Shown here: piece by piece, positions 3,437 through 24,972 of the stretch | Position numbering within the stretch: position 1 is the stretch's first letter | How the letters are laid out: every line of letters starts with the position of its first letter | Source of the DNA: Candidatus Omnitrophota bacterium | GTDB taxonomy: Bacteria; Omnitrophota; Gorgyraeia; B26-G9 | Assembly (NCBI GenBank): GCA_016213925.1 | Contig: JACQZH010000030.1 | Location: forward strand, 1-43,641 | DNA: 43,641 nucleotides | Reading direction: 5' to 3' | The notes under the pieces: model-generated | Database searches by the model: none | Told to the model about the DNA's origin: nothing | The model's input: the letters and a program-made list of their open reading frames with translations, nothing else | Program-made: the position numbers and the translations under genes

Positions 3437-3456
3437 GCATAAGCTAGGGAGGAAAG

Positions 3457-4695: not shown

Positions 4696-4720
4696 GAAAA
4701 GCGACTTTCTTGATTAATGG

Positions 4721-4770: not shown

Positions 4771-4778
4771 AAAATACC

Positions 4779-5258: not shown

Positions 5259-5335
5259 ACTTATAGTTTCAGAAAAAACTTAGAAAAAACAGCAGAAAAT
5301 TACAAAAATTATTAATTTTAGAGGAAAAATAAATA

Positions 5336-5390
5336 TTGACAAAGCACAATATATTGTATATTATGAAACGAAAGATACAAGATAGTGTAT
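5336..5390 (+). promoter_or_regulatory. nrdR promoter with two NrdR-box-like palindromes
   Basis: -35 TTGACA (5336-5341), 17 bp, -10 TATTAT (5359-5364); boxes gcaCAATATATTGtat (5344-5359) and ataCAAGATAGTGtat core (5375-5390), with box centres 31 bp apart. Confidence 0.75.
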
Positions 5391-5426
5391 ATTTTGGTAT
5401 CGGAATAATAACGGAGACGATAAATT

Positions 5427-5888
5427 ATGAAATGCCCTTTTTGCGCGAATATAGAGGATAAAGTGGTTGACTCCCGGATTTCAACAGAGGGAGATTCTAT
5501 ACGCAGAAGGCGTGAATGCTTAAAATGCCAGCGCAGGTTTACAACTTATGAATATGTTGAAAAGACTACGCTGATGGTTATCAAAAAAGATGGGCGCCGT
5601 GAGCCGTTTGACCGGAATAAGGTTTTATCAGGGGTATTACGTGCTTGTGAAAAACGTCCGATAAGCATGCAGGCAATTGAAGGAATGGTTGATTCAATAG
5701 AGCGCCAGTTACAGAAGAATAATGAAAAGGAGGTGGTAACTTCCGATATTGGGGAACTTGTTATGAAGTCCTTGCACGGAACTGATGAAGTAGCTTATGT
5801 GAGATTTGCGTCTGTTTACCGGCAATTTAAAGATATAAATCAATTTTTAGGCGAATTGAAGGATTTATTGGATAAGAGGAGGGAATAA
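5427..5888 (+). CDS. nrdR: Transcriptional repressor NrdR
   Basis: MKCPFC...[22 protein letters not shown] zinc ribbon plus ATP-cone. Confidence 0.97.
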
Positions 5889-5890
5889 AA

Positions 5891-8314
5891 ATGCTGTTAG
5901 AGGATAAAATTGTTTCCAGGGAAGGGAAAACTCTTCAAAGTGTAGTAAAACGTGATGGCCGTATAGTAGCGTTTGACAGCCAAAAAATTAGCGAGGCTAT
6001 TTTTAAAGCAGCGCAGGCTGTAGGAGGAGAAGATCGTTTGCTTGCTGATGAGTTGGCCAATGCGGTTGTATTATATCTGGAAAAGAACTTTCAGGATGCG
6101 GTACCGGATATTGAGCAGATTCAGGATATTGTCGAGAAAGTATTGATTGAAACCGGGCACGCGAAGACAGCTAAGGCATATATTCTTTACCGCGAAAAAC
6201 GCAGGAAAATAAGAGAAAGCCTTAAAGTGCGGAAAAAAGTAAAGGGGCGTACAAATTCAACTGACCTGGCTCTTCTGGTAACTCCGATGGCCAAGGATGA
6301 GGTTTTAAACTGGGATAAAGGCAGGATCGCGCTTGCGCTGCAGAAAGAAGCTAATATTGAAGAAGACTTGGCTTTAGATATTGCTTCCGGTGTGGAAAAA
6401 AGAGTTTTTGATTCCGGGCTTACGCGTATCTCTACGTCGCTTGTCCGTGAGTTAGTAGATAATGAGTTATTTGAACGCGGTCTGGATAAGACTATCTCTA
6501 AGCAGAGTATTATTGGTATGCCGACTTATGACCTTGAACAGTTACTTTTTTCAAAAAGCTGCGAAAATTCAAATATTGCTTCAAATAATCCGGAAGCGGT
6601 TAACCTTTCTATAGCGGAAACAATTTTAAAACAGTATGTTTTGCAAAAGGTATTTTCCGAAGATGTATCCAGTGCGCATTTACAGGGCATGGTTCATATC
6701 CATGATTTAGGTTACCCGAGAGCTTACTGCGGTTCGCATTCTATTGAATATTTAAAAAAATACGGGCTTGAACTGGGTAATCTATTTACATCAAGCGGCC
6801 CGGCAAAATATGCCCGTACTCTTACCGGGCATTTGAACACATTCCTGGCTTCTTTACAGGCTTATTATGCCGGAGCTTTAGGAATCGGATATGTAAATAT
6901 AATGTATGCGCCTTTTATTGAGGGTATGAGCGATAAAGAAATGAAACAGGAAGCGCAGTACCTTATATTTTCCGCTTCGCAAAATGCTTTTTCCCGCGGT
7001 AGCCAGAGCTTGTTTATTGATTTTAACGTGCATACCGGAGTGCCTAAATACTTGCGTAATATTCCTGCGATTGGCCTTGGCGGAAAATATACAGGAAAAA
7101 CATACGGCGATTATGAGGAAACAGTTATTAGATTTGCCAGGGCTATGCTTGATGTGTGGCGTGATGGCGACCGAGATGGCCGTGTTTTTGCTTTTCCGAA
7201 GTGCGATTTGCATATTAATGAGGATACATTTGAAGATCCCCTTCAGTTGGAGCTGCTTAAGCATGCTTGTCTTATAGCTTCCGAAAACGGAACGCCTTAT
7301 TTTGTGTTTGACCGCGGCGATGAAGCAGTGTTATCTCAATGTTGCCGTTTGCGCCAGAAAATAGAGGATATGCATATGATTGAGCATCCGGAAAGTATGA
7401 GGTTCTGCGGTTTTCAAAATGTTACGATTAATCTGCCGCAGGCAGCTTATCGTGCCGGCAAGGATAATTTGGATAACCTGCTTAAGGAAATTGAAGCAGC
7501 GATGGATATAGCAGTAAAGGCCCACTTGCAGAAGAAGGAGTTCATTGCCCGGCTTATGAGTGAACCGGGAATGCCCATGTGGGAAGTAGGTAAACCGGCC
7601 AAGGATGGCCGGCCATACATCGATCTTGCAAAAGCAACATATATTATCGGTTTAATCGGGCTTAATGAGTGTGTTCAATACTTAAGCGGTAAAGAGCTGC
7701 ATGAGTCTGAAGACATATTTAAAATTGGTTTAAAGATTATTTCCTTTATGCGTTATAAAACTAAGGAATATGAGAAGCAGCACGGCCTTAAGTTTTCGCT
7801 TGAAGAATCTCCGGCAGAATCAGCATGCCGCAGGCTTCCAAAGGTAGATTTGCGCCAGTTTCCACAAGCTGCCAGCGTAATAAAGGGGGACATTGATAAC
7901 GACCAATATTATTACACTAACAGTATCCATTTCCGTGCTGATGCGCCGATAGACTTAATTACCAGGATTCAGAAGCAGAGCAAATTTCATACAATGATAG
8001 AATCTGGAGCGATAATTCATGCTTTTGTCGGAGAGCAGAAGCCGTCTGAAGAATCAATTTTGAATCTGGTTAAAAAGGCGCTTTTACAAAGCCAAACCGC
8101 TCAGTTGACAATATCTCCTGAATTTACAATGTGTAATAGCTGCGCAAAGACTAACCGCGGATTAGAGAACAAATGCGCGAGTTGCGGTTCGCTGGATATT
8201 TATAATATTACCAGGATTGTCGGATATTTCAGCCGTGTAAATAACTGGAATCCGTCAAAACTGGCAGAACTTGATGATAGGCATCTAGGAGACTATAAGG
8301 TTAAGGAAGGTTAG
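5891..8314 (+). CDS. nrdD: Anaerobic ribonucleoside-triphosphate reductase (class III)
   Basis: N-terminal ATP-cone (VVKRDGRIVAFDSQKI); MVHIHDLGYP; C-terminal zinc site CNSCAKTNRGLENKCASCGS and RIVGYFSRVNNWN. Confidence 0.95.
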   Translation: MLLEDKIVSREGKTLQSVVKRDGRIVAFDSQKISEAIFKAAQAVGGEDRLLADELANAVVLYLEKNFQDAVPDIEQIQDIVEKVLIETGHAKTAKAYILYREKRRKIRESLKVRKKVKGRTNSTDLALLVTPMAKDEVLNWDKGRIALALQKEANIEEDLALDIASGVEKRVFDSGLTRISTSLVRELVDNELFERGLDKTISKQSIIGMPTYDLEQLLFSKSCENSNIASNNPEAVNLSIAETILKQYVLQKVFSEDVSSAHLQGMVHIHDLGYPRAYCGSHSIEYLKKYGLELGNLFTSSGPAKYARTLTGHLNTFLASLQAYYAGALGIGYVNIMYAPFIEGMSDKEMKQEAQYLIFSASQNAFSRGSQSLFIDFNVHTGVPKYLRNIPAIGLGGKYTGKTYGDYEETVIRFARAMLDVWRDGDRDGRVFAFPKCDLHINEDTFEDPLQLELLKHACLIASENGTPYFVFDRGDEAVLSQCCRLRQKIEDMHMIEHPESMRFCGFQNVTINLPQAAYRAGKDNLDNLLKEIEAAMDIAVKAHLQKKEFIARLMSEPGMPMWEVGKPAKDGRPYIDLAKATYIIGLIGLNECVQYLSGKELHESEDIFKIGLKIISFMRYKTKEYEKQHGLKFSLEESPAESACRRLPKVDLRQFPQAASVIKGDIDNDQYYYTNSIHFRADAPIDLITRIQKQSKFHTMIESGAIIHAFVGEQKPSEESILNLVKKALLQSQTAQLTISPEFTMCNSCAKTNRGLENKCASCGSLDIYNITRIVGYFSRVNNWNPSKLAELDDRHLGDYKVKEG

Positions 8315-8358
8315 ATACTAGGATCTCTGGTTAAAGTATTAAAGGAGGATTTTCAGGA

Positions 8359-8625
8359 ATGAAGATTAAGGTGTTTGGTAAAAAGGGCTGCGCGAAATGT
8401 GAAACCACAAAGAACAAGCTGACCCATTTTATTACTAAATGGGATGTTGATAATAAAGTAGAACTTGTTTTTCATGATATGGATACAATAGATGGAATGG
8501 CTGAAGGAGCGTATAACGATGTTTTGCATATCCCTACGACTATTGTAGAAAAGGAAAATCAGGTTGTTGCCCGATGGGATGGAGAGGTCCCTATTTCCGA
8601 TAAGGTAAAGGAGCATATTTTATAG
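8359..8625 (+). CDS. Small thioredoxin/glutaredoxin-like protein (CxxC)
   Basis: KVFGKKGCAKCETTKNKL and a cis-Pro-like IPTT; lies directly after nrdD. Confidence 0.7.
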   Translation: MKIKVFGKKGCAKCETTKNKLTHFITKWDVDNKVELVFHDMDTIDGMAEGAYNDVLHIPTTIVEKENQVVARWDGEVPISDKVKEHIL

Positions 8626-8694
8626 AGTAGGTTAATATTGAAAAAGATAGTTTTCAGGAAGACAAGGAGGTAATAGTTATACTTCTTGTCTTCT

Positions 8695-8766
8695 TGTTTT
8701 TAGCTTTTGATTTTTTTCGCCAAAATTCATGGCGGATTCGCCGGTCTGTGCGGCGAAAATTTTTGA
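8695..8766 (+). repeat. Dispersed intergenic element, copy 1 (T-rich heptamers plus alternating CGCC/GGCG hairpin)
   Basis: ttttttCGCCaaaattcatGGCGGATTCGCCggtctgtgcGGCGaaaatttt; inverse-orientation relative at 15599-15672. Confidence 0.6.
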
Positions 8767-8774
8767 TTTAGTAT

Positions 8775-9420
8775 ATGGCATATATAATAAAGGGTTTTAA
8801 TCCGCATACTTTTATTGATTGGGCGGGAAAGCTGGCAAGTGTGGTCTATTTGCCCGGGTGCAATTTTCGCTGCCCATTTTGTCATTCTAAGGCGCTTGTA
8901 CAGGAAATTGATACTCTTTCAGATATCTCCTTTGATTACATAGAGAAGTTTTTGAAAGAAAAAAGCGGCTGGCTTGATTCAGTGGTTATCGGCGGAGGAG
9001 AACCTACGCTGCATGCTGACCTGCCTGAGCTTTTGAAGAAAATATTTAATTTCCGAAGGATTGGTAGATTATGTGGCAATGGATATAAAAGCGCCTTTAG
9101 ATAAAGAAAAATATTCCTGTTTGGCTGGGGCAGAGGTCAATCTGGCCGCGATAAAAAATAGTATTGAGATCATTATGAAAAGCGTTATTGATTATGAATT
9201 CCGCACGACAGTTGTTCCGGGTTTATTAGAAATAGATGACATTTTGAGGATTGCAAAAGACGTGTACGGAGCGAAAAGATATGTTTTGCAGCAGTTTGAT
9301 CCGAAAGAAGCATTAGACTGTTCATTGCATGCTGTGAAGCCTTATGATACGCAAATTTTGATACAAGCTGCTTTATCCGCGAAAGAATTTGTGCGGGATT
9401 GTTTTGTGCGGGGAATATAA
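8775..9420 (+). pseudogene. nrdG: Anaerobic RNR activating protein NrdG-type radical SAM, split by an internal frameshifting deletion
   Basis: ORF 8775-9104 has the CNFRCPFCH radical SAM motif and GGGEPTL, then leaves frame; ORF 9061-9420 resumes with LVDYVAMDIKAPLDKEKY in another frame. Confidence 0.8.
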
Positions 9421-10272
9421 ATGAAAGAGGCGCTTTATTATCGTATCCATAAGGCTGATGCTGTGCAGTGTGTTCTTTGCCCGCACAATTGCCTGATAGC
9501 TGAAGGGAATACCGGCTTTTGCCAGGCGCGGAAGAATGTTGCCGGAAAACTTTATTCCTTGATTTACGGGAAAACATCAGGCATTGCTTTAGACCCGATT
9601 GAAAAAAAACCGCTCTATCATTATCATCAGGGAGAGAGTATTCTTTCTTTAGGCACAGGCGGATGTAATTTAAAATGCCAATTCTGCCAAAATTGGCATA
9701 TTTCCCAGAATCTGGATGTGTATTTAAAAGATATATCTTCTGAAGAAATTGTAAAAGAAGCGCTGCGCCTTAAAACATTCGGTATTGCTTATACCTATAA
9801 TGAGCCGTTTATCTGGTACGAGTTTGTTTTGGAAACTGCTAAATTGGCTAAAAGCAAAGGACTGGAGAATGTCCTGGTAACTAACGGTTATATGAATATT
9901 GCTCCTTTAGAGGAAATGCTGCCCTTTATTGGGGCAATGAATATCGATTTAAAGGCAATGGATGATGGGTTCTATCGAAAGATTTGCAAGGGGGCGCTTG
10001 AGCCTGTTTTGGCGACAATAAAAAGGGCTAAAAAAGAATGCCATATTGAACTGACAAATCTGGTTATTCCTACGCTAAATGACAGCGATGAGCATTTTGA
10101 AAAAATAACTGATTGGGTTTTTGAAAATACCGGAGCTGATACTGTACTCCATTTTTCCAGGTATTTCCCCTGTTATCAGTTGAATCTGCCGGCTACTCCG
10201 GCGGAAACTCTAAAGCGCGCGCAGGTTATCGCGAAGAAAAAACTTAAGTATGTTTATTTAGGTAATATCTGA
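9421..10272 (+). CDS. AmmeMemoRadiSam-system / PflA-like radical SAM protein
   Basis: CVLCPHNC...GFCQARKN; GTGGCNLKCQFCQNWHIS radical SAM motif; AYTYNEP. Confidence 0.88.
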   Translation: MKEALYYRIHKADAVQCVLCPHNCLIAEGNTGFCQARKNVAGKLYSLIYGKTSGIALDPIEKKPLYHYHQGESILSLGTGGCNLKCQFCQNWHISQNLDVYLKDISSEEIVKEALRLKTFGIAYTYNEPFIWYEFVLETAKLAKSKGLENVLVTNGYMNIAPLEEMLPFIGAMNIDLKAMDDGFYRKICKGALEPVLATIKRAKKECHIELTNLVIPTLNDSDEHFEKITDWVFENTGADTVLHFSRYFPCYQLNLPATPAETLKRAQVIAKKKLKYVYLGNI

Positions 10273-10302
10273 CCTTTTAAAATTATTTTAAGGCGGCTGT
10301 TT

Positions 10303-10770
10303 ATGTTTGAAATAAAACCGTATGTTGATTCAAAGTTTTGCCTGGAATGTAAAGGCTGTTGTTTGTTTATGAAAGAAAAATGGCTTCCGCATTTGCTTGA
10401 GGATGAAAAAAAGCTGCTTGAAAAAGATAGGATAAAATTAAAAGAAATAAATAATACTGACGGATGCGAATTTTTAAACCGGAAAAATCATTTATGCTGT
10501 ATTTATGGACAGCGGCCGTTTGAGTGCAGGCTGTATCCTTTTTTGCTTGTACGCAATGAAAAAACTCTGGATCTTGTTGTCCATCTGGCATGCCCGTTTA
10601 TAATGGATAGCCGGGAAAGTGAATATTTTAAAACCTATTCCAGCGAGCTTGTATCTTTCCTGAAAAAATCGCCGGCAGTGGATTTGCTGAAAAAAGAATA
10701 TAAGGCATTCCGCGTTTATCCCGAAGCGGAACTTTTTAAAATAGAGAGTGATATCTTAGGGAAGGGCTGA
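10303..10770 (+). CDS. YkgJ-type cysteine cluster protein
   Basis: CLECKGCCLF...CEFLNRKNHLCCIYGQRPFECRLYPF. Confidence 0.82.
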   Translation: MFEIKPYVDSKFCLECKGCCLFMKEKWLPHLLEDEKKLLEKDRIKLKEINNTDGCEFLNRKNHLCCIYGQRPFECRLYPFLLVRNEKTLDLVVHLACPFIMDSRESEYFKTYSSELVSFLKKSPAVDLLKKEYKAFRVYPEAELFKIESDILGKG

Positions 10771-10773
10771 TTA

Positions 10774-11700
10774 ATGAGGCAGGAGCTTTTTCTCAAAAAC
10801 AAAATTTCTTTAAGCGACAGGAAGATATTTGAAGATTTTTTACGCAAATATCCGGCGAATTTAAGCCCGTACAATTTTTCCAATATTTTTATCTGGAACG
10901 GGTTTTTTGATATTTTTTGGTGTGTAATGGAAGAGAGCCTTTGTGTTTTTTATAAAAATAACGCTGGTTGTTTTATGTATCTAAGCCCGGTTGGCCCTGC
11001 CTTGACCAAGGCGCTGATCAAGGATTGTTTTGCGCTTATGGATGAACATAATAAAGATGTCAGGTTCGCGCGTATTGAAAATGTTGGAGAAAAACACGCG
11101 GAATTTTACCGGCAGGCGGGTTTCGCGGTTAAAAATAAGCCTTCGGATTATCTTTATTTAACTAATCGGCTGATTGATTTAAAAGGAAACGATTTTAAAT
11201 CAAAACGGGCAGCGGTTAATTATTTTACTAAAAATTTTTCCTGCAAATATCTGCCTTATAGAATTAAATTAAAGGATGAGTGCAGGCAGCTTCTGCTGGA
11301 TTGGGCTGCTAAGCGCAAAAAGGCCTATCCGGAGGATTATTTTTGCCATCTGATCGATGATAATGTTATGGCGCAGGAAAATGTATTTGAATGTTTTAAC
11401 GAGCTTGGCCTTGTTGCCAGGGTTGTTAAAGTTAACGATAAAATAGCAGGATATACTTTCGGCTATGAGCTTAATCCGCAAACTTTTTGTATTTTATTTG
11501 AGGTTTGTGACCTTAAATATAAAGGGATCTCCCAATTTATTTTTCATGAATTTTGCCGGGAAATGGAAAGATATAAATATATTAATGCAACTGATGATTC
11601 GGGCATTGAAAATATAAGAAAGGCAAAATTGTCGTTTAAGCCATTAAAAGAAGAAGCGAATTATCTGGTTTTAAGGGGCGATAAAGGCATTTGTTTGTAA
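10774..11700 (+). CDS. DUF2156 / phosphatidylglycerol lysyltransferase C-terminal-like (GNAT-fold) protein
   Basis: Family resemblance: NLSPYNFSNIFIW, FYRQAGF, GYTFGYELNPQTFCILFE. Confidence 0.65.
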   Translation: MRQELFLKNKISLSDRKIFEDFLRKYPANLSPYNFSNIFIWNGFFDIFWCVMEESLCVFYKNNAGCFMYLSPVGPALTKALIKDCFALMDEHNKDVRFARIENVGEKHAEFYRQAGFAVKNKPSDYLYLTNRLIDLKGNDFKSKRAAVNYFTKNFSCKYLPYRIKLKDECRQLLLDWAAKRKKAYPEDYFCHLIDDNVMAQENVFECFNELGLVARVVKVNDKIAGYTFGYELNPQTFCILFEVCDLKYKGISQFIFHEFCREMERYKYINATDDSGIENIRKAKLSFKPLKEEANYLVLRGDKGICL

Positions 11701-11781
11701 CTTGCGTAATTCAGTGCGTAATTTAGCTGGTTTTTATCTTGTTTTTTGGTATAATGCATTATATATTATGGAGGTCTAATT

Positions 11782-12975
11782 TTGGATAATCTTTCAAAGG
11801 GCAAAAGTCCATTTTATCCTGGGCAACCCGTTCCTGTAGATTTCTTTATTGGCCGCATTAATGAAATTGAGCGGATTATAAGGATTATAAAACAAGTTGA
11901 ATTGGGAAAACCGCAAGCGGTATTTCTTTCTGGTGAATATGGCATAGGAAAAAGTTCGCTAGCCAGTTTTCTTCGGTATTACGCAGAAAGAAATAACCAT
12001 ATTTTGGGTATTCATGTTTTTTTGGGTGGAGCTGAAACTCTGGAAGATGTTGCTGTTAAAACTGTTGAGGCAGTAATTAAACAGCAGATTTATGAAGAAA
12101 CAAAATTAGAAAAAATCCGCAATTTTTTTGCAAAATATATGGGCCAACAGTCTCTTTTTGGATTAAATATCAATTTTGATGCTCTTAAGGCAGATGCTTT
12201 GAATTTATCTCAAGGGTATCTGCCTTTCTTAAGAGAATTACTCAATCGTTTCAAGGAGGATAATATTAAAGGTATAATGTTGATTCTGGATGAGATTAAC
12301 GGTATTACCGAAAATAAACAATTTGCGCATTTCATTAAAGGCTTGGTTGATGAAAATGCAGTTAGTAAAACCCCTTTGCCTTTGTTGCTGATGCTTTGCG
12401 GAGTTGAAGAGAGAAGGAAACAAATGATAGATAAACATCAGCCGATAGAACGCATATTTGATATAGTCGAAATAAATCCGATGAATGAAACAGAAATGAA
12501 AGAATTTTTTACGAAAACATTTAATTCGGTAAACATGCAGGTAGTGGATGATGCGATGGTTTTTCTGTGTAAATACTCGGCTGGATTCCCGAAATTGATG
12601 CACATAGTTGGCGATAGCACTTTTTGGTTAAATAATGATGCGTTTGTGAATAAAAATGACGCTACTGCGGGAATAATCGAGGCCGCGGAAGAGATAGGTA
12701 GAAAGTTTGTAGATCAGCAAATTTACACGGCTTTGCATAGTAGCGATTATAGATCGATACTTGCAAAATTAGCGAAAGAAAAATTTGACTTATTATTTGA
12801 AAAAGGCGATATAGAAAAAGGCCTTTCCGAATCCGAAAGAAAGAAATTCCATAATTTTCTTCAACGGATGAAGAAGCTTGGCCTGTTAAAATCAGGAGAA
12901 AAATACGGAGAATATATTTTTACCAATCGGCTTGCACGTCTGTATATTCGATTTAAATCTCTTGAAGATAAATAA
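11782..12975 (+). CDS. ATP-binding protein, AAA/STAND (Orc1/Cdc6-like ATPase)
   Basis: FLSGEYGIGKSSL P-loop, GIMLILDEING Walker B, C-terminal wHTH-like region. Confidence 0.8.
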   Translation: MDNLSKGKSPFYPGQPVPVDFFIGRINEIERIIRIIKQVELGKPQAVFLSGEYGIGKSSLASFLRYYAERNNHILGIHVFLGGAETLEDVAVKTVEAVIKQQIYEETKLEKIRNFFAKYMGQQSLFGLNINFDALKADALNLSQGYLPFLRELLNRFKEDNIKGIMLILDEINGITENKQFAHFIKGLVDENAVSKTPLPLLLMLCGVEERRKQMIDKHQPIERIFDIVEINPMNETEMKEFFTKTFNSVNMQVVDDAMVFLCKYSAGFPKLMHIVGDSTFWLNNDAFVNKNDATAGIIEAAEEIGRKFVDQQIYTALHSSDYRSILAKLAKEKFDLLFEKGDIEKGLSESERKKFHNFLQRMKKLGLLKSGEKYGEYIFTNRLARLYIRFKSLEDK

Positions 12976-13196
12976 TTTTTCATCAAGATATTACAAGAAT
13001 TATTGCTGAATCCGAAATTAAACAAGTATCGTTAGAAATCATTTCTGGGGTGGGTTATGTGGTTGTTAATAGGCTGATATCGTCCCTGAAAGACATGGTT
13101 AGGAAAGGCACGACTCGGCAATAGAGTTATTGACACCAAGTTGACATTCATGATTTTTTATGATAAATTGAAACAACCTCGTAAATAAAGTTTAGT

Positions 13197-13272
13197 GCCG
13201 AGGTAGCTCAGTCGGTAGAGCGAAGGACTGAAAATCCTTGCGTGGGCGGTTCGATTCCGTCCCTCGGCACCA
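13197..13272 (+). tRNA. tRNA-Phe (GAA), CCA encoded
   Basis: 7-bp acceptor GCCGAGG/CCTCGGC; anticodon arm AAGGA-CTGAAAA-TCCTT (GAA); TTCGATT T-loop; ACCA end. Confidence 0.95.
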
Positions 13273-13307
13273 AAAATAAAGACCCCTTTTGGGGTCTTTA
13301 TTTTTTT
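13273..13307. terminator. Bidirectional intrinsic terminator between tRNA-Phe (+) and the convergent radical SAM gene (-)
   Basis: aaaataaagacccc-tttt-ggggtctttatttttt, perfect stem with A and T tracts. Confidence 0.92.
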
Positions 13308-14683
13308 AGAAGATATTGTTCAATCTTTTCTGGGCTGTTGAGCAGCGGATTAAACTCCTGCCAGCATTTATCATCTTCCATGCATAGATAAACCGGGGTT
13401 TGAGGGTCGTATTTTCGGATGTTCTTTAACATAACCGAATAGATTTGTTTTCTTAAAAATTTCGGGTAACGCAGTTTTTTATCTTTTCCCAGAAAAAGTT
13501 CTCCATAAAAGATGTTTTTGCCTGGGAAGCGCAGTTCGGATGATGTTTTTAATTTTCTTGTCCCGCGCAGAGTGCCGATGCTTATCCACCTGAATCCTCC
13601 GGATAAATGATTGTAGATAAGTTCAATAACATCCTGATAATCTTTTTCCCAGTTTTCTGAATATATTACCGGGTCAAAGTGAAAGCTAAGCGTATATCCG
13701 TGCTCTATGACTTTTTTGGCGCTTGTCAGCCTTTTGAGCAGTGAGGCTGTGTTTATTTCTTCTTTATCGATTGTTTCTTGAGGATTCAATGACCAGGAAA
13801 TAACGATATTTTTTGAGGCAGGAATCATTAACAGATTTTCGATATTAGAGCTTTTTGTTTTTAATTCGAAAAGCACATTTTTGTTCCGGAAGAAGTTTAC
13901 AAGTTGTTCGGAATAATTAGTGATATGATCCAGGGCTAAGGAGTCAGAAAATTCTCCGGTGCCGATTCTTATCGGTGCTTTTAGATTTTTATAGTATGAA
14001 TTAAATTTTTCAAAAAAATCATCAAGGTTTGCCGGCAGGGTAATACCCGGGAAATTCGCGTATTGCTGCAGGAAGCAATAAGAGCAGTCGTAAGGGCATC
14101 CAAAGCCAAGATTAAGGATCCAGTAATTACAGCCAAGGTGGCCTTTTGTGCATGGGCAGGGTTTTATATAGTCCCAGTTTTCGCTCACAATAAATACCAG
14201 CGGAGCTTTTAGCTCTGAAAGCTGGAATTTATTTTTTTGAGCGTATTCCCAGGAGTGATTTATGAATTCGGTTTCAACAGTTGGGAAAAGTCCCTGAAAA
14301 CGTTTGGCAAGATAGCTGTTTTTCGCTTTTTCTTCTATGAAAATTTTTTCAGGGAAGAAATCTTTAAGGGGTGTGATGTTATTTTTAAGCTGCGGTTTTA
14401 GCCCGTTAAGAAACACATCTTTTGCGTCAATTTTTTCTTTTTGGCTTGTCAGAGGGAACCGTAATTTTATCAGCTGCTGTTTTAGAAAGAAAAATTTGTT
14501 TTTTCCTTCGGCCTTAATGATCGCGGGGTCGGTTTTTAAAGTGCTGATAATTTGAGGGTAAGAAGTATTGCCGCGTTTTTCTATTTCGTATAACAAGCGC
14601 TGAAGTTCTTTGAACTGGTTAGTATTCAACCGGAAATCAAAATCCTGCTCAAGCTTATTTTTTAATATGTTTTCTGTTTGCAT
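13298..14683 (-). CDS. Spore photoproduct lyase-like radical SAM protein
   Basis: NLGFGCPYDCSYCFLQQYAN motif, IRIGTGEFSDSLALD, TKSSN. Confidence 0.82.
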   Translation of the reverse strand: MQTENILKNKLEQDFDFRLNTNQFKELQRLLYEIEKRGNTSYPQIISTLKTDPAIIKAEGKNKFFFLKQQLIKLRFPLTSQKEKIDAKDVFLNGLKPQLKNNITPLKDFFPEKIFIEEKAKNSYLAKRFQGLFPTVETEFINHSWEYAQKNKFQLSELKAPLVFIVSENWDYIKPCPCTKGHLGCNYWILNLGFGCPYDCSYCFLQQYANFPGITLPANLDDFFEKFNSYYKNLKAPIRIGTGEFSDSLALDHITNYSEQLVNFFRNKNVLFELKTKSSNIENLLMIPASKNIVISWSLNPQETIDKEEINTASLLKRLTSAKKVIEHGYTLSFHFDPVIYSENWEKDYQDVIELIYNHLSGGFRWISIGTLRGTRKLKTSSELRFPGKNIFYGELFLGKDKKLRYPKFLRKQIYSVMLKNIRKYDPQTPVYLCMEDDKCWQEFNPLLNSPEKIEQYLLKK

Positions 14684-14729
14684 AAGTTTTTAATCTGGAT
14701 TGTTTTAAAGCTTAATTAATTTTTGTTTT

Positions 14730-14757
14730 GCAGCCTGCGGCTTGAAGCTTGCAGCCG
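14730..14757. repeat. Four degenerate heptamers
   Basis: GCAGCCT GCGGCTT GAAGCTT GCAGCCG. Confidence 0.7.
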
Positions 14758-14759
14758 AA

Positions 14760-15587
14760 TTATCTTGTGTGCTTATCTATAATATTTTGGTAGTATGCTA
14801 CTTCTTTTGATTTATCTCTTTTTTTTGCGCCTTTTATGTAAATGATGCATTTTCTTTCAAGTTCCTTGACGGCCAATAAGCGCTGTTCATCAGAGAGTCT
14901 ATTGTTATCGATAATCTTTTTTATGGAATAAATTCTGAATTTATCCATAGCAGGGTGTTTTTTAGAAAGCTGGTCTTGATGCCCGCCTTTTTTTTCAGTC
15001 ATAAATTCAGGGATCAGCTTTACCGGAAATTCCGCGCTTACCCTTAACCAAAAATCATAATCTTCGCAGGCAGGAAGGTTTTCGTCGAACATACCTATTT
15101 GTGTAAAAATTTCTCTGCTTATGGCTGCTGTGGATATGCTGATACAGCAAAGCTTCAAAGCGTTTTTAAAAACATAACCGTCTGGCTTTTTATGGATTGT
15201 TTTTTGCGTCAAGAGTTCTTTATTGCGATACCAGATTTCTTCAGTATGAAATATTTTGTATTCAGGATATCTTTTGATGTAGTCATAAGTTTTCTTAAGT
15301 TTATCCGGTTTAAACCAATCGTCAGAATCGAGAAAGCAGATAAAGCTTCCGGTTGCTGCTTTTACTCCGCTGTTGCGGCTGAAAGAAACTCCCTGATGAG
15401 GTTGTTTAATGTATTTAAGCCGGGGATCGTTTATTGTTCTAATGAAACTTTCGGTTTCATCTTCAGAGCCGTCATCAATTATTATAAGTTCAAAATCCTT
15501 AAACGACTGGTTTAATACAGAAGCAACTGCTTTTTTTAAAAAATCAGAGCGGTTATATGTAGGGATAATAATGCTGAAATAGGGCAT
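14760..15587 (-). CDS. Glycosyltransferase family 2
   Basis: FSIIIPTYNRSDFL, IIIDDGSEDET, FLDSDDWF. Confidence 0.93.
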   Translation of the reverse strand: MPYFSIIIPTYNRSDFLKKAVASVLNQSFKDFELIIIDDGSEDETESFIRTINDPRLKYIKQPHQGVSFSRNSGVKAATGSFICFLDSDDWFKPDKLKKTYDYIKRYPEYKIFHTEEIWYRNKELLTQKTIHKKPDGYVFKNALKLCCISISTAAISREIFTQIGMFDENLPACEDYDFWLRVSAEFPVKLIPEFMTEKKGGHQDQLSKKHPAMDKFRIYSIKKIIDNNRLSDEQRLLAVKELERKCIIYIKGAKKRDKSKEVAYYQNIIDKHTR

Positions 15588-15598
15588 ACCTTTAAAAG

Positions 15599-15672
15599 TT
15601 TTCGCTACAAAACGTGGCGAATCCGCCGTGAGTTATGGCGGAAAAAGTTAAAAACAAAAAACAAAAAATCAT
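15599..15672 (-). repeat. Dispersed intergenic element, copy 2 (inverse orientation relative to 8695-8766)
   Basis: Reverse complement reads ...ttttCCGCCataactcacGGCGGATTCGCCacgttttgtaGCGAAAA, preceded by T-rich heptamers. Confidence 0.6.
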
Positions 15673-16045
15673 GTTGATTATAATATGTTTGAATTGATTT
15701 GTAAACAAAACAGAAAAATATACTAAGCCAAAACAAAAATTATTTCCTTATTTTTAAAACAAGACTTTTAAAAACTTTTTAACTTAATTTTCCGACGAGA
15801 AAAAAATTTATAGCGCATCTTGCGAAAAATATAAACATATGATATACTTTTTGGTCTTTTTGGATTTGAACTAAAAATTTTTAAAAAGGTAATTTTTTTA
15901 ATTTTATCATCCGGGGGGTTGGTGAGATTAGTATGATGAACTCATCAGCCTTTTAATTTTTTGTGATGTAATAGTAGGGCTAAAAGAAAAATTTTTTAGC
16001 AGGATAAGTTAAAAAGGACTGATTAAAAAAGGAAAGGGGTTTGGG

Positions 16046-19000
16046 ATGTCAAATTTTATTTTGAGGCGTTTAAATAAGGTTGTTTCTTTAATTATTGCGC
16101 AAGTATTTTTAATAACTAGTCTCTCATGGGCAGCACCAGGAGGGACTTTTTCTTTAATAGGCGAGGACAATACGCTTTCTCCGACCATACAGGTCGGACA
16201 GTCGCCATTTCTCGTGGGATTTCAAAACGCGGCGCAGGCTGATGCGTCTTTTTCCCAGAATGTTTTAAGAGATGGATTTGTTGCGGTTGATCCGATTTTG
16301 GTTGAAGGGCTTGAGAGCGTAGAGGTTGCGGAAACGCTTTCTGAGGCGAATTCTCTTGAAGGGCCGATTGAAAGTAAAGTTGATTTAATGCACGCGCAGA
16401 ATATGGCTGCCATAGAAGTGCTTAAATGGATTAATACTGTCGGTAGCAGGTTTGCAAAAGAGAAGGCAGACGGAGCCGGGGCCAGGTGGACGCGCCATTA
16501 TTATAATCAGGGAATTCCTTGGATGAGGGGTACTGTTGTTATTGGCGAAGGCGAACGCGATAAAGCAGCGATGTTGTATATTGGGGAAGAAGTTGGTGGA
16601 GCATATAATACGACCCAGGAAGACAGTGATTCTATTGAGGTTGATATTGCCGGCGATGTGGTTGAACTTACCAACGGGATTGTGAAAACTGGTATTCTGG
16701 GAACGGTTTCTGTTGCTTCATATTCAGAAAAAGGCGGAACGCTTAACGCACCGGATATTTATATGACTAAGTGGGCAGTCGGGCCGGCGGCGAAAGGCTG
16801 CGGGATAAGCACAGAATTAAGCCTGGAAGAAAACCTAAGCCGAATCGCGGATAAATTAGGTAAAGAAGTAAGCGGCTTAAGGGGAACGATGCTTTTCAGA
16901 GAAAGGCATGTCGCGTGGCTGGTGAAATTTTTTGATGCAGGAATTCAAATGAACGCGCAGGAAGACAAAGAATTATCCGCACTAATTAACGCGTATAAAG
17001 AATTTCAATCACATAAGAAACAGTATCTTGGAAACGCAAAAGGTACTTCTTCGGAAGCAGACGCTTTATTAAAATTAAAAGAAGTAAAAGCAGAGCTAAT
17101 TAAGGCGTATAAGGCTTTAGATAAAAAAGTTAAAGCAGCGGGAAAATATAGAATCGGGAATTTTTATCTTTTGGCGGATGGTGATCTTATGCCGGTATGG
17201 GCAATGGAAAGCGTTGAAAAAGGAGAGATAGATTTTTTAACCGGTGCCGGCGGCGCTCCTGAAGCGGTATTGGCAGCAAGCGCTGTTGAGACAATGGGCG
17301 GTGAAATGGTTGCGCGTCTTTGCGCTTATGAAATTTTAAAGGAAACGGCTAGTTCCGATAATCCGCTGGATTGGCCTGATGTTGATGAGGATTGGAATAA
17401 ATTTAATGATAAAGAATTGGCAAGGCTTGCTGGTTTCGGTTATGATAGCCCGGAAACTTTAGGCGCGGCAAGAACTTCTAAAGAATTGATTAGCGGAAAA
17501 GATGTGGTTTTTATTGCCACTGCTATAAAAGACAGCCCTTGGTTAAAAAATTTAAAAGGCGTCAGCTTTGATGCTCAAACCGGATTAATAACTGTTTATA
17601 CTCTTAGGGCGACAAAGTCGGGAGATAAAAAGATATGGAAGTTTAGTTATAAAACTCCGGCTACTGAATTAAAGGCAAAGTTGGCAGTAGAAGATAATGA
17701 GGTTAATAAGGCGGAATTACGTTATCAATTAAGCTCGGTTTATGGCCGCGTCGGCCGGTTGGATTTAGCCATGGGAGAAATCAGGCAGGCGGTTAGTACA
17801 GCAGGAGTGAGTGCGGATAATTTAAATAAATATCAGGCGGCGTTGTATTTTTATCAAGCTAAGATGGCTTTATTGCAGGAAAAAGATCAAGAAGTAAGGG
17901 CGTTGGGGCTGCTTGAAGCAGCTTATAAGGTCTATCACAAAGATGAAGTGAGAGCCAGAGAATTAAGCGCTGAGCTTGCTGAATTTATGGCGGATAATTT
18001 AGCGAAAACCAAAGATTATGTTAAAGCGGTAGAATATTATCGTCATGCTTTGCGCCTTTTCCCGGAGAATGAACCTTTACTTGATAAAATCAGAAAAACA
18101 GAAGATTCCCTTAGAAAACAGCAGCAAAGCAAGGGAAAGGTTCTTGCAGTTGATACTTTGGAATTCAGCGGATTACGCGGGCGTGATTTATTTGACGCAT
18201 TGGAAGCTACAGAGGCAGGAAGGAAGATGATAGTACCTGCGTTTAATATACGTGTAGCGGACTTAAGCTACGCGGGTATAATCAGGGCGGCAAAAGCAAA
18301 AGGAAGCATAATTGAATTTCAAAAAGCAAAGAGCGAATTAGGATACACGCATAGGGATAAGAAAGCGATTCTTCATAATATTTATGAATTTGCGCAGGAA
18401 GTAAGGGAAGCATGCGCCAAAGAAGGGTTTAATGATTTTATAATTAAGGGAGATCATTTAACGACAAAAGTTGATGAAGCGTTTCTGACTGATAAGGCAG
18501 CGCAGGAGGCGGTTAAGGGATTGTTTGACCGAATTTTAGCGACAAAAGATAAGGCAGCGAGGAAATATATATTCCTTAACGCGTTGGAAGATAAAAAATT
18601 CATGGCTAACGCAAATACGGCTAATGCAATGAAAGTTATAAAAGAAGTATTTGATATGATTTTGGCGGAAGTTGACGCAGGGTATAGCGTGTTCGCGATA
18701 GACGCTTCATGGATGCCGATGCCGTTGAATGTGCGGATTACGGCGTTTTTCCATGGGATGATACCTGCGGACCGCGCAATAGTTGAAGGAGAAGTGGGAG
18801 AGATTGACGGGAATAACAACTCTACTCCTGCGGACGCGGTGGAATTTTTAACCGGCGTAAGATACGCGGAAGAGATTGAAGTAAGCAATCCGAAGACAGG
18901 GGAAAAAAGGATAGTTGCAAGCACCTCGGAGATTAAAAAGGGAGAAGAGATAGATGATGCTAAGCTGGTAAAAGATGCGGCAGGTAATTATGTGGAACTT

Positions 19001-21643
19001 TACCGCGGAGAAGGTTTAATAAACTTTATAGCAGCTGAAGAATTTATCAGAAATATAGCGGTAAAGAACGGTTCAGCGCATGGCAACCAGTTTGACGAGA
19101 ACAATAATCCGATACCGACGAAGCTTAAACCAAGGCTGACGAAATCGATACATGATACGGTAAATGAATTCATGAAGCCGTATGGGATTAAGGTTAGGGT
19201 AGTCCAGCATGGAATAACCGGGACTCCTCTTGAGAATATGCAGGATTTAAGGCGTGTAGGCATCCGTTCCGGGCATGTGGGAACGCAGTGGCAAAACCTT
19301 GTCTGGGATGAGCTGATACCGGCAGCAAAGGAAAATACGGAAGTAATGAAAGTGGTGGAAGAAATCCTGACCTGGACGGCGAATCTTTTCGGTAAAAAGT
19401 ATTTAAGCGAAGCCGACCAGACGCCGGAAAGAATCAAGGAATTAGTAAAAAGATATATTGCGCAGTACGGCCAAGCGAAGATGGAAGCGAGCGATAAGGC
19501 GTTTGACAAACTAATTTCCAAAGAGATAAAGAACGCCAACGGCCCGTTTACTGATCAATTAAAGGCATTGCCGCAGTGGTTAAAGGACAGGATTAATAAT
19601 GCGACTCAGAAGTCTGCGGAAGAATATTTTGACGCTTTCAAAAGTACGGGAGCCGCGCAATTGGTAGTGGAATATTTAACCACAGAAGATTATATAAGAG
19701 ATACTTTTGGCTCCTTGGTATTTACTGCCGAGCAATACGCTCAAAAACGCGGAATCAGCAATGAAGAAGCCCAAAGAAGACTGGAAACAGCGTGGCGGAA
19801 CTTTGATAATATTGATCGTGTGAAATTAAGTAACGGAAATAAAGGTTACTGGTATAATTCAATCGGTGTTGCTATTCAGCTTGGCTCAAACACAATGCCG
19901 AAAGATATTCCAGCCGGAGCAGCGATGAGGGTTATTGTCGGGCATTCCGCGGTAATGGAAAGAGGGATGACTGTTGCACAAAAGAAAGCGCAGTTAGACG
20001 CATTCCGTGACACCGGATATAAGATTATCTTTCCGTTCGGCGATTTCCCGGAAACCCTTAAAGGGGTTGATTACTTAAAAGGCGGGCAGCGTAAATTCGC
20101 CGTAACATTTGAAACAATAAAAGAACAAGCAAGATTATTTGGCGGAGAATACGCGGAATTATTCGCGGATGCCTCTGATGTAGAAGGTATGCGGTTTGTT
20201 AGTGAGTTGAGAACTGAATATGCCGATTACTATAGTACTCTGCAATCTGTTGTAACTGCTGGCATGAAAAAGATGCTGGCGGATGGAGCAAAAGATGAGA
20301 AAGCAGTAGCGCTTGTTTTAGATGCTAGGGGACGCGCTCAAATTAATGTTGCTAATTTGATACTTAGGCAATATCCGGAGCATGGACAGCGTATCTTGAA
20401 GGAATTAAACGTAGAAAATTATTTTCTAACAGTAGAAGATTTTAAACTATATGTCGAAGGCAAGGCGCAGATTCCAGAGCTGGATAAATTTATAAGCAAT
20501 GTGAATGAATTTATCTTAGATGATCTTGCGATGGTCAAAGAACTGATCATTAAAGAGATTTCTACGGTACATGATATCAACAGCCAGATAAGAGCTTTAT
20601 TCAAAGATGTTCCAGTAGAGCAGGTTTTACATCAGATAAAAGAATCTTATGAGCCGGTAGAAGGTATCAAAACTGTAGCGATTTCTAACCAATTACAGGT
20701 ATTGCGTAAAGAAAAGATGATCCAGGAATTGGTGCAAACAAGTATTCCTAGGCAAACAACCCAGGCGCAGGCAATAGAGATTGCTAAGGCTTTAGGGTAC
20801 ACGCAATTATCAGATGTGCAAGGCGAGCATTTAAAACAAAAGCTTGATACTTTGCGTGCTGTTTATAAAGAAAAATTGGAAGCTAAGATTATCTATGGCG
20901 GAGGCGCTAATGCTGCTAATTTTAAAGAAGTAAGCGGAATATGGGGCAATGCCGGAGCTTTTATCGGACGGGCGATTCTTGACGTTAAGGACTCTGTTAA
21001 AATAGCGGTTTCCGCGGCTAGAGCACCGGGACGTCCTGATGTAATAATGAATTTTAAAGCAGAAAGAGACGGGTCTTTAAAAGAATGGATGGATGCTTTA
21101 AAGGCAGCTAATATTGATTTGGCAAAAGATGTGAAGGTCACTTTAGGGGTATTACTGCATGACGCGGTTCTGACAATGCGCCAGTTGCAGGGTATAGACG
21201 TAAGTGATTTACTGGAAGACCAGAGCCAAGCGAAGTTTGGTTTTACTATTGATGCCAGAACAGCTGAAGTTGGAACTGAGCCGGCAGATATAAAATTAAA
21301 AGGTCCGACTTCTGGCAACATTCGTGCAGAATTTTTATCTAAACTGGGTGTTAAAACTGTGGTTATTGACGGTATGCAGTCAAAAGATACTGTTATGATG
21401 CAAGTGAGAAATTTAGTTAAAGCTGGTATTGACGTTGTTATTGTGCATAAAGACGCGGAAGACGGATTCACAGTTGACCGCGATAAGATAGTGGGTACCG
21501 GCAAGATTGATATCGTAACTTCTTTTGACTCAAGCAAAACTACTCCTATTGGTGAACTTAGGACAACAGCGGCAGTAGCTAAGATGCTTAGTTTAGTTAA
21601 TCTTAATCAAGAGCCGGTAGTTTTAGTCGGACGGGCAATTTAA
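16046..21643 (+). CDS. Multidomain fusion: signal-peptide-like N-terminus, class II fructose-1,6-bisphosphatase (GlpX-like), TPR-like linker, class II fructose-bisphosphate aldolase, triosephosphate isomerase-like domain(s)
   Basis: FBPase: KADGAGARW, VVIGEGERDKAAMLYIGEEVGG, LNAPDIYMTKWAVGPAAKG, LADGDLMPV, GAGGAPEAVLAA. FBA: KGDHLTTKVDEA, VEGEVGEIDG, NGSAHGNQF, VVQHGITGTP, GHVGTQWQ. TPI: VIVGHSAVMERG, SYEPVEGIKTV, IIYGGGANAANFKEV, GAFIGRAILD. Confidence 0.9.
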   Translation: MSNFILRRLNKVVSLIIAQVFLITSLSWAAPGGTFSLIGEDNTLSPTIQVGQSPFLVGFQNAAQADASFSQNVLRDGFVAVDPILVEGLESVEVAETLSEANSLEGPIESKVDLMHAQNMAAIEVLKWINTVGSRFAKEKADGAGARWTRHYYNQGIPWMRGTVVIGEGERDKAAMLYIGEEVGGAYNTTQEDSDSIEVDIAGDVVELTNGIVKTGILGTVSVASYSEKGGTLNAPDIYMTKWAVGPAAKGCGISTELSLEENLSRIADKLGKEVSGLRGTMLFRERHVAWLVKFFDAGIQMNAQEDKELSALINAYKEFQSHKKQYLGNAKGTSSEADALLKLKEVKAELIKAYKALDKKVKAAGKYRIGNFYLLADGDLMPVWAMESVEKGEIDFLTGAGGAPEAVLAASAVETMGGEMVARLCAYEILKETASSDNPLDWPDVDEDWNKFNDKELARLAGFGYDSPETLGAARTSKELISGKDVVFIATAIKDSPWLKNLKGVSFDAQTGLITVYTLRATKSGDKKIWKFSYKTPATELKAKLAVEDNEVNKAELRYQLSSVYGRVGRLDLAMGEIRQAVSTAGVSADNLNKYQAALYFYQAKMALLQEKDQEVRALGLLEAAYKVYHKDEVRARELSAELAEFMADNLAKTKDYVKAVEYYRHALRLFPENEPLLDKIRKTEDSLRKQQQSKGKVLAVDTLEFSGLRGRDLFDALEATEAGRKMIVPAFNIRVADLSYAGIIRAAKAKGSIIEFQKAKSELGYTHRDKKAILHNIYEFAQEVREACAKEGFNDFIIKGDHLTTKVDEAFLTDKAAQEAVKGLFDRILATKDKAARKYIFLNALEDKKFMANANTANAMKVIKEVFDMILAEVDAGYSVFAIDASWMPMPLNVRITAFFHGMIPADRAIVEGEVGEIDGNNNSTPADAVEFLTGVRYAEEIEVSNPKTGEKRIVASTSEIKKGEEIDDAKLVKDAAGNYVELYRGEGLINFIAAEEFIRNIAVKNGSAHGNQFDENNNPIPTKLKPRLTKSIHDTVNEFMKPYGIKVRVVQHGITGTPLENMQDLRRVGIRSGHVGTQWQNLVWDELIPAAKENTEVMKVVEEILTWTANLFGKKYLSEADQTPERIKELVKRYIAQYGQAKMEASDKAFDKLISKEIKNANGPFTDQLKALPQWLKDRINNATQKSAEEYFDAFKSTGAAQLVVEYLTTEDYIRDTFGSLVFTAEQYAQKRGISNEEAQRRLETAWRNFDNIDRVKLSNGNKGYWYNSIGVAIQLGSNTMPKDIPAGAAMRVIVGHSAVMERGMTVAQKKAQLDAFRDTGYKIIFPFGDFPETLKGVDYLKGGQRKFAVTFETIKEQARLFGGEYAELFADASDVEGMRFVSELRTEYADYYSTLQSVVTAGMKKMLADGAKDEKAVALVLDARGRAQINVANLILRQYPEHGQRILKELNVENYFLTVEDFKLYVEGKAQIPELDKFISNVNEFILDDLAMVKELIIKEISTVHDINSQIRALFKDVPVEQVLHQIKESYEPVEGIKTVAISNQLQVLRKEKMIQELVQTSIPRQTTQAQAIEIAKALGYTQLSDVQGEHLKQKLDTLRAVYKEKLEAKIIYGGGANAANFKEVSGIWGNAGAFIGRAILDVKDSVKIAVSAARAPGRPDVIMNFKAERDGSLKEWMDALKAANIDLAKDVKVTLGVLLHDAVLTMRQLQGIDVSDLLEDQSQAKFGFTIDARTAEVGTEPADIKLKGPTSGNIRAEFLSKLGVKTVVIDGMQSKDTVMMQVRNLVKAGIDVVIVHKDAEDGFTVDRDKIVGTGKIDIVTSFDSSKTTPIGELRTTAAVAKMLSLVNLNQEPVVLVGRAI

Positions 21644-21661: not shown

Positions 21662-21720
21662 AAAGCTGCAAGTTTCAGGTTTCAAATTTTAATTGTTGCC
21701 TGTGACTTGCAGTTTTTTTT
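21662..21720. terminator. Long-stem terminator with heptamer-periodic arms
   Basis: CTGCAAGTTTCAGG...CCTGTGACTTGCAG followed by T8; one mismatch and one G-T in the stem. Confidence 0.8.
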
Positions 21721-22348
21721 ATCGCTTTCTTTTAAAGCTAAATATTCCGGATAAACCGATAAGCCACATAATAAATGCGGATGGTTCGGGGATGGTATTG
21801 GCGTATCCCGGAGTCCCGTAGTCTCCTTGCCCGAAAATATATTCCGGACTTTGAGGTGTGGCAATCCAATTTGCCGGATTATTTAACTCGCCGTTTCCGG
21901 TATAAGCGATTGATTGCCCTGAAAACAAGGGCCAAGAAGCAGTATAATCTATACGGCTTATTTCTTCTGCGCCGGTATTTTCCAGAATTAGCTCATCTGC
22001 CGTATTGCTAAGCTGAAAACTGCTGTAAATATAATCAGGATTGTACCCGCCGTTTAAACCGGTATCCGCATTTCTTCCTAAAACCAGAAATCCAAACGCG
22101 GGAATTACCAAAGGGCCGTTGTTGTTTATCTGGTGATAATTAGTATCAATATCCCGTATTATCCATTGATTAATATCAACAGCAAGATTTTCAGGATTGT
22201 ATAACTCGATCCATTCTCCGTAAGTATCTGAAGAAGCGTTGGGGTCAATCATTGCTTCATTTATTATAACTGCCGCCTGTGAATACGCGCTTAAAAGCAA
22301 GCAAAAAGCTAAAACAAGTACAGTTTTAAGTATTTTCATAATCCACAC
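21719..22348 (-). CDS. Secreted lamin-tail-domain-like protein with a PEP-CTERM sorting signal
   Basis: Signal peptide; VIINEAMIDPNASSDTYGEWIELYNP; C-terminal PEPSAFIMWLIGLSGIFSFKRKR. Confidence 0.87.
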   Translation of the reverse strand: MWIMKILKTVLVLAFCLLLSAYSQAAVIINEAMIDPNASSDTYGEWIELYNPENLAVDINQWIIRDIDTNYHQINNNGPLVIPAFGFLVLGRNADTGLNGGYNPDYIYSSFQLSNTADELILENTGAEEISRIDYTASWPLFSGQSIAYTGNGELNNPANWIATPQSPEYIFGQGDYGTPGYANTIPEPSAFIMWLIGLSGIFSFKRKR

Positions 22349-23589: not shown

Positions 23590-24972
23590 ATGAAAAACAG
23601 GTGGCAGGTTTGGTTATTGGCAGTGATATTTTTAGAGCTGATGAGTTGTAAGGAAGTTTGTTTTGGATTTAAATCTGGAGAGTTGATATCGGAAGAAGCC
23701 TATAAATATGGACGTTTTGAAGTGCGGATGAAATCAGCAAGAGGGAGTGGGTTAGTCTCGTCCTTTTTTACTTTCAATGATCACGCAGCTGATAATATTC
23801 AGTGGTGGAATGAGATTGACATAGAATTACTGGGTAAATATGAAGATATAGCGCATTTCAATATTATAAAGTATTATGCGGAGCAATTTCCCTATGTTCA
23901 GTCTGTAAGTTTTGACCCGCATGCTGACTTCCATGTTTATTCTTTTGAATGGACTCCTGATGGAGTAAGATGGTTTATCGACGGGGTATTAGTTTTTACA
24001 GATTATTATTACTACGCGAAACAATTAACCGAATATCAAAAAATTATGATGAACCTTTGGATGTCAACTGATGTTTGGCAAGAAATTGATCCTGGTAATT
24101 TGATTGTGGATAACCCTAATATTTTGCCTGTTTATGCTTATTACGACTGGGTTAAATATTATAGTTACAACGGACAAACGGGAACTTTTTCATTGGAATG
24201 GGTAGAAGATTTCAATACGGCTGCTGAAGTTTTAACTCGCTGGAATCCATCAGAAAAAGCAGGATTCTGGGGGAGTAACAGTGATTTTGAACCGGAGAAT
24301 GTTTTTTTTCATAAAGATGGATATCTGGTGTTGATATGCGATGATTTGCCTGACGATATTATTCCGGGAATACCTGGGCCAGATGAAATTATTTTAGCGA
24401 ATCCTCAGGAATTAGAATTTACAGCTGGTGCTGGAAACCGTAAAAGTTTTATTATCGAGAATGCGGTAGAGCAGAGCAATGTATACTGGAGTGCGTCAAC
24501 TAACAAAATGTTTTGGATAACAGGTATTTACCCTATCCAAGGCGGTCCGATTTCGTTGCATCAAACTTATCCGGTCACAATGTGGATAAACAGGCAAGGA
24601 TTAAGCGATGGGTTGCATGAAGGAATAATCACATTTACTGGCGGCGGTAAAAAAACAAATGTTTTGGTTAAAGTATGGATTCAGGGTGGGGGAAGTTTAA
24701 AATCAATTAGAAGTTTTCCCTCAATTAGTTATTATGATGATCTGGGCAGCGCATATTTTAATAGTCTTGATAATGCGATTATTCAAACTAAAAGTGAATA
24801 TTTTGGTAAAGATTTTATAGCAGATCAGAATAAAGTTGTTAGATTGTCGGGTGGATACGATGCTTTTTATGATGTGAACGCTAATGGGAATAGCATATTA
24901 AAATCGATGAAAGTGCTAAATGGTAAAATCATTATTGAGTCAGGAAAATATATAGTAGGGTTACCTAAGTAG
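23590..24972 (+). CDS. Glycoside hydrolase family 16-like secreted protein
   Basis: YGRFEVRMKSARGSGLVSSFF, WNEIDIELLG (ExDxE catalytic motif), FHVYSFEWTPDGVRWFIDG. Confidence 0.86.
   Translation: MKNRWQVWLLAVIFLELMSCKEVCFGFKSGELISEEAYKYGRFEVRMKSARGSGLVSSFFTFNDHAADNIQWWNEIDIELLGKYEDIAHFNIIKYYAEQFPYVQSVSFDPHADFHVYSFEWTPDGVRWFIDGVLVFTDYYYYAKQLTEYQKIMMNLWMSTDVWQEIDPGNLIVDNPNILPVYAYYDWVKYYSYNGQTGTFSLEWVEDFNTAAEVLTRWNPSEKAGFWGSNSDFEPENVFFHKDGYLVLICDDLPDDIIPGIPGPDEIILANPQELEFTAGAGNRKSFIIENAVEQSNVYWSASTNKMFWITGIYPIQGGPISLHQTYPVTMWINRQGLSDGLHEGIITFTGGGKKTNVLVKVWIQGGGSLKSIRSFPSISYYDDLGSAYFNSLDNAIIQTKSEYFGKDFIADQNKVVRLSGGYDAFYDVNANGNSILKSMKVLNGKIIIESGKYIVGLPK

Follow-up and report, generated by a model that had tools for sequence, protein, structure and literature searches.

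Does the long ORF of this Omnitrophota contig really encode several enzymes of sugar metabolism in one chain and, if so, where would such a chain act, and on what? We call its product P0001, and by the window we mean the whole stretch of 43,641 nucleotides that was analysed. The original prediction saw there one uninterrupted 1865-aa ORF in which FBPase II, TPR-like helices, FBA II and TPI formed a gluconeogenic megaenzyme, presumed to act by channelling or scaffolding.

The single frame is confirmed: it starts with an ATG preceded, 7-16 nt upstream, by a Shine-Dalgarno-like AGGAAAGGGG (16030-16039), and contains neither an internal stop nor a frameshift. The domain search also recovered the three enzyme families, in the expected order FBPase-FBA-TPI, and every motif that had been named was found. 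We judged the Pfam scores against the curated cut-offs, which were exceeded by FBPase_glpX (181 bits, E 3e-53, cut-off 27), whose match covers both halves of the domain, by F_bP_aldolase (52 bits, E 8e-14, cut-off 25.5) and by TIM (30 bits, E 5e-7, cut-off 20.1), the last over C-terminal strands. GlpX structures match P0001 at E 1e-28 in a PDB sequence search with phmmer. The cut-offs of the single-enzyme NCBIfam equivalogs are not reached by the domains of P0001; for glpX the score is 159.5 bits vs a cut-off of 259.3. The TPR-like helices fared less well: a weak signal is indeed present, with weak matches to designed TPR proteins in the PDB sequence search, but Pfam TPR_2/TPR_8 are marginal and below cut-off (residues 646-675). 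The order along the polypeptide is a signal-peptide-like N-terminus, FBPase II, the TPR-like part, FBA II and TPI. As far as profile matches tell, P0001 is one chain with three successive enzymes of sugar metabolism, the strands of its TPI being in permuted order.

In the alignment with E. coli GlpX, the ligand-motif residues D142, E168, D204, E207, T209, Y239, D378, D380 and E406 are retained, and we take their roles to be those of E. coli GlpX biochemistry. The motifs ADGA, GEGE, DxxExT, NAPDxYM, DGD and GGAPE are all found. The Gly of DPIEGT (G89 equivalent) is replaced by L208, which could lower the activity of the FBPase. In the aldolase the metal ligands are retained in GDH (D803, H804), SAHG (H1012) and QHG (H1055), while the catalytic/phosphate motif NxD[TS] is altered to GHVGT; this change of Asn to His (H1077) could also lower activity. 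When compared to stand-alone GlpX, class II FBA and TPI, with which they are homologous, the domains of P0001 are, on these alignments, diverged: they have large inserts and a permuted TPI and retain most ligands. As a separate observation, three other loci (L047, L048, L052), whose proteins are probably exported, have a helix-hairpin-helix array inserted within the class II aldolase domain.

For the TPI, the Pfam match is confined to C-terminal strands because the domain is permuted, its N-terminal strands being placed downstream. We built a TPI profile from 21 canonical Omnitrophota TPIs and compared it, with hhalign, to a six-sequence alignment (A2) including P0001. Against the single profile, three stretches of A2 match in sequence order: beta4-beta5, beta6-beta8 and once more beta3-beta5. 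Against the doubled profile, one continuous path beta6-beta8-beta1-beta5 is obtained, with a probability of 96.8% and a score of 86 vs 66 for the single profile. Part 1 carries GHS (H1300), YEPV (E1536), YGGG and a long insert (about 1363-1500); in part 2 the NFK (N1669, K1671) is aligned on the canonical beta1 N-x-K. A non-permuted, N-terminally truncated TPI is ruled out, as the beta1 N-x-K is found downstream and the doubled profile aligns in one path. Hence the TPI of P0001, as these profiles describe it, is circularly permuted, beta4-beta8 preceding beta1-beta3. Part 2 also holds a degenerate second copy of beta4-beta5, with VIDGMQSKD replacing GHSERR, and loop 6 is without the canonical Trp (YEPVEGIK).

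The four catalytic residues (N1669, K1671, H1300, E1536) are invariant in all six sequences, P0001 and five others whose identity to it is 32-71%. About 59 of the 661 alignment columns are invariant, and four out of four catalytic residues would be found among them by chance about once in 16,000, a figure which is only rough because the catalytic motif helps the alignment. The strand order beta3-beta8 then beta1-beta2 is also seen in more canonical-looking giants (L045, L077, L079, L060), L045 having the layout [beta3-beta8][beta1-beta8][beta1-beta2]; L066-L070 have TPI strands in the normal order. For an AF2 model of the L059 TPI tract (pTM 0.70), all of the 50 top PDB matches are TPI structures. 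The model of residues 1205-1865 of P0001, made from the six-sequence alignment, is weak (pTM 0.53) and returned no fold match. For an enzyme that is the archetypal TIM barrel, a natural circular permutation would be notable in its own right; none is reported in the titles and abstracts of the papers found that combine both terms.

Table. Features of the window (coordinates in the window) and giant ORFs of other Omnitrophota genomes (coordinates in their own loci)
Feature	Location	Strand	Basis
Whole ORF, P0001, 1865 aa	16046..21643	+	ATG start, uninterrupted frame, RBS-like AGGAAAGGGG
Signal-peptide-like N-terminus, 29 residues, MSNFILRRLNKVVSLIIAQVFLITSLSWA then APGG	16046..16132	+	Sequence; hydropathy and charge scan; same layout in relatives
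NTLSPTIQV motif shortly after signal peptide	16169..16195	+	Recurs in same-family giants
GlpX domain, residues 112-503, with ~60-aa insert (about 314-375)	16379..17554	+	Pfam; PDB phmmer; E. coli GlpX alignment
TPR-like helical linker, residues ~576-687	17771..18106	+	Marginal Pfam TPR; weak matches to designed TPR proteins
Class II FBP aldolase domain, residues ~708-1211	18167..19678	+	Pfam; alignment with canonical FBA and a stand-alone 370-aa relative
Permuted TPI part 1, beta3/4 to beta8, residues ~1265-1655	19838..21010	+	Pfam TIM; hhalign
Permuted TPI part 2, beta1-beta3, residues ~1660-1800	21023..21445	+	hhalign doubled profile; N/K invariant in six
Small PEP-CTERM/lamin-tail-domain exported protein, adjoining the fusion gene	21719-22348	-	
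GH16 glycosidase, beyond the PEP-CTERM/lamin-tail gene	23590-24972		
L067 (G365:C23): signal-peptide FBA-TPI (2638 aa) and adjacent signal-peptide enolase-PPDK (2025 aa)	1802-15891		Pfam
L069: FBPase class V-TPI			Pfam
L075: PGK-TPI			Pfam
L076: FBPase class I-TPI-GAPDH			Pfam
L077: TPI-GAPDH			Pfam
L059 (JAHFHJ010000055.1), 2851-aa ORF open at both ends: permuted TPI-GAPDH-enolase-PGM	whole contig		Pfam
L043/L045 (G047): PPDK-aldolase start; aldolase tail-TPI-TPI-enolase	one contig; another contig		Pfam
L047: aldolase-PFK			Pfam
L044 (G047:C61), signal-peptide giant: degenerate FBPase, TPR, cytidylyltransferase-like (CoaD-like), CoaE	213-6950		Pfam
L101, L102, L103: PGK			Pfam

Inspection of the N-terminus gives a basic n-region and a hydrophobic core followed by SWA/APG, a layout which recurs in relatives. 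Because it resembles a Sec signal peptide, then followed by an LSPxIxI motif, the product of the gene is probably exported. Variants of the motif in same-family giants are TLSPTIQI, TLSPDIHL, NLSPSINI and TLAPNIGI, and related giants with an intact N-terminus show a signal-peptide-like sequence and an LSP motif. This kind of start, frequently followed by a motif resembling [TN]L[SA]Px[IV], is shared by giants of this and other families whose sets of enzymes differ widely.

The search for the same architecture in related genomes was successful: among 98 relatives, three same-family genomes carry overlapping parts of P0001. G006 has signal peptide-FBPase-TPR-aldolase in one ORF which stops at the contig end and is 62% identical over residues 1-805, with a nearly identical N-terminus; G001 has aldolase-TPI in one ORF (45% identical to P0001) and G011 a TPI tract (67% identical). 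All GlpX ligand motifs are intact in P0001 and in G006. The aldolase of G006 and G001 belongs to a different class II subfamily, with longer inserts, the ligands kept and the Asn of NxD[TS] retained. Since this domain comes from another subfamily, what is conserved, judging by the domain comparison, is the presence of an aldolase between FBPase and TPI, the domain itself having been exchanged.

The stand-alone copies asked about in the original prediction were found for two enzymes out of three: elsewhere in the genome there are a canonical full-length TPI (337 bits), directly adjoining PGK, and a canonical FBA (325 bits), as well as stand-alone PPDK and GAPDH, while no other glpX was found. 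This means that the fused TPI and FBA are not the housekeeping copies and would serve some other purpose. In this genome, which is about 90% complete, no GlpX other than the fused one was found, and a search for FBPases of classes I and V gave nothing. Two stand-alone PFK genes are present and, if one of them is PPi-dependent, the FBP/F6P step could be run without the fused GlpX. A conserved metabolic operon is ruled out as context, the neighbours of the ORF being glycosyltransferase, PEP-CTERM/LTD and GH16 genes. Another contig of the same genome (G000:C67, L100:1410-9118) carries two adjacent giants: the first is made of a signal peptide, the ATP-grasp and mobile domains of PPDK and an HD-like part, the second of a membrane part resembling a HEMGH metalloprotease and of a permuted enolase, with the C-terminal barrel placed ahead of the N-terminal domain.

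Such giants are not confined to this genome. TPI was searched in 386 genomes of the class, and the matches of 44 genomes, nearly all with more than one, were listed match by match: most of the extra TPIs belong to ORFs between about 800 and 15,000 aa long, certain of these lengths (L071, L104, partly L060) being inflated by masked N runs and not relied on. Pfam assignments point to a recurrent Omnitrophota class of giant signal-peptide ORFs joining FBPase, FBA, TPI, GAPDH, PGK, PGM, enolase and PPDK. The giants were retrieved by TPI, FBA or FBPase queries and the enrichment of these three is biased for this reason; the partner domains were unselected. The FBPases in giants are of three unrelated types (GlpX, class I, class V). 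L043 and L045 probably form one gene, and the CoaD-like and CoaE domains of L044 may together cover the final two steps of CoA synthesis.

Several of these loci deserve a remark of their own. The two giants of L067 have their N-terminal region in common. At L102 (G011:C262) three signal-peptide giants stand in a row, one like UDP-glucose pyrophosphorylase with a CBM48-like part, one PGK and one unrecognised. L042 (G057:C162, 1139-13159) is a chain of 4007 aa in which a ligand-poor FBPase is combined with HEAT repeats, a protein kinase domain and a histidine-kinase ATPase domain. In L059 the motif RSE[TVA]R occurs ten times, mostly in the linkers between recognisable domains, and may mark processing sites. 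No such linker is found in P0001, and the reading as a cleaved polyprotein is for this reason not extended to it.

We propose, with confidence about equally divided, that P0001 is an exported, probably catalytic, cofactor-free multienzyme leading from triose phosphates to F6P, possibly with channelling of the intermediates, and that it belongs to an exported central-carbon system spread across the lineage. The signal peptide would direct it to the periplasm, the cell surface or the coat. The tethered TPI and then FBA would make fructose 1,6-bisphosphate from triose phosphates, and the FBPase would dephosphorylate it to fructose 6-phosphate and Pi, a stretch which should require no nucleotide cofactor; the TPR-like part would be a spacer or a docking surface. 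P0001 would probably cooperate with the exported PPDK-type and enolase-type giants of the same genome, on phosphorylated metabolites freed by prey, host or dead cells. Such a use of metabolites would fit the predatory or symbiotic traits described for Omnitrophota in PMC10066038. A cytoplasmic housekeeping role for the megaenzyme is not supported, given the signal-peptide-like N-terminus and the canonical TPI and FBA.

The main rival, which we consider unlikely, is an exported pseudoenzyme, its domains reused as folds for adhesion, for the coat or for interaction with host or prey, with little or no catalysis. Surface "moonlighting" glycolytic enzymes offer a parallel. The Asn-to-His change of the aldolase and the degenerate second TPI copy point this way, as does the loss of metal ligands from the FBPases of less closely related giants (L042, L009 and L044 are without some of them in the E. 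coli GlpX alignment). The signal peptide and the great length also match the adhesin or coat role proposed for the giant ORFs of Omnitrophota in PMC10066038. Nevertheless, the metal ligands of both FBPase and FBA are retained in P0001, the catalytic N/K/H/E of TPI stay invariant down to 32% identity, and the partner domains are pathway neighbours and not random folds.

It is still less probable that the N-terminus is a mere anchor and that P0001 is a cytoplasmic or inner-membrane-anchored metabolon, the tethering serving the gluconeogenesis of the cell itself. Three consecutive steps in one chain would suit it, and we keep it because the only class I, II or V FBPase found in the genome is the fused GlpX, which fits a cytoplasmic role equally well. 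The basic n-region, hydrophobic core and SWA/APG nonetheless look like a classical export signal of the cleavable kind, which would leave the C-terminus outside; the separate TPI and FBA, and the two PFKs if one is PPi-dependent, also speak against it. Neutral accretion, in which repeat-driven fusion, duplication and permutation in a lineage tolerant of giant ORFs left a functionless combination, seems very improbable: the domain sets and permutations do vary between lineages and no domain could be recognised in several bystander giants, but partners are strongly biased to glycolysis/gluconeogenesis, the architecture is conserved across genera, and the FBPase, TPR and TPI parts have dN/dS values of 0.10-0.17 (synonymous sites being near saturation), by which measure the sequence is under purifying selection. 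Finally, the idea that assembly or binning has wrongly joined separate genes can be dismissed, even though the source MAG consists of 81 contigs: the architecture is common to G006, G001 and G011, its junctions reappear in other, independent MAGs (FBPase-TPR-aldolase in G006, aldolase-TPI in G001), the frame is intact, and the single-contig genome G077 likewise has a signal-peptide giant with TPI.

Among known systems, Thermotoga maritima has a bifunctional PGK-TPI fusion, like P0001 a bacterial fusion that includes TPI, but it is not known to carry a signal peptide, FBA or FBPase, and its TPI has the canonical order. TPI-GAPDH fusions with mitochondrial targeting (PMC3527533) occur in stramenopiles, cercozoans and an apusozoan; like P0001 they place consecutive glycolytic enzymes in one chain behind a signal targeting it out of the cytosol, but they are eukaryotic, bifunctional, not giant and not FBPase-FBA-TPI, and the abstract mentions no permutation. 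Within the same phylum as P0001, giant ORFs with very long, poorly annotated and probably extracellular products are known; PMC10066038 discusses those >20 kb, with few annotated domains, as adhesins, coat or polysaccharide degradation, and a text search of this paper found no fused central-carbon enzymes. Our literature search found no paper on such fusions in Omnitrophota. Two-enzyme glycolytic fusions and Omnitrophota giant ORFs are each known, with no paper found that links them.

Bacterial glycolysis and gluconeogenesis are regarded as cytosolic. Our wider proposal, a tentative one in which we have less than even confidence, is that Omnitrophota may run a second, extracytoplasmic central-carbon pathway made of giant exported fusions (PPDK, enolase, PGM, PGK, GAPDH, TPI, FBA, FBPase), TPI and enolase being permuted to sit inside long chains, and acting on outside metabolites during predation or symbiosis. 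P0001 is small enough for direct expression and testing. If the proposal is true, signal-peptide giants with nearly the whole pathway would represent a new compartmentation of central metabolism, and some of the giant ORFs of Omnitrophota would receive their first concrete biochemical function.
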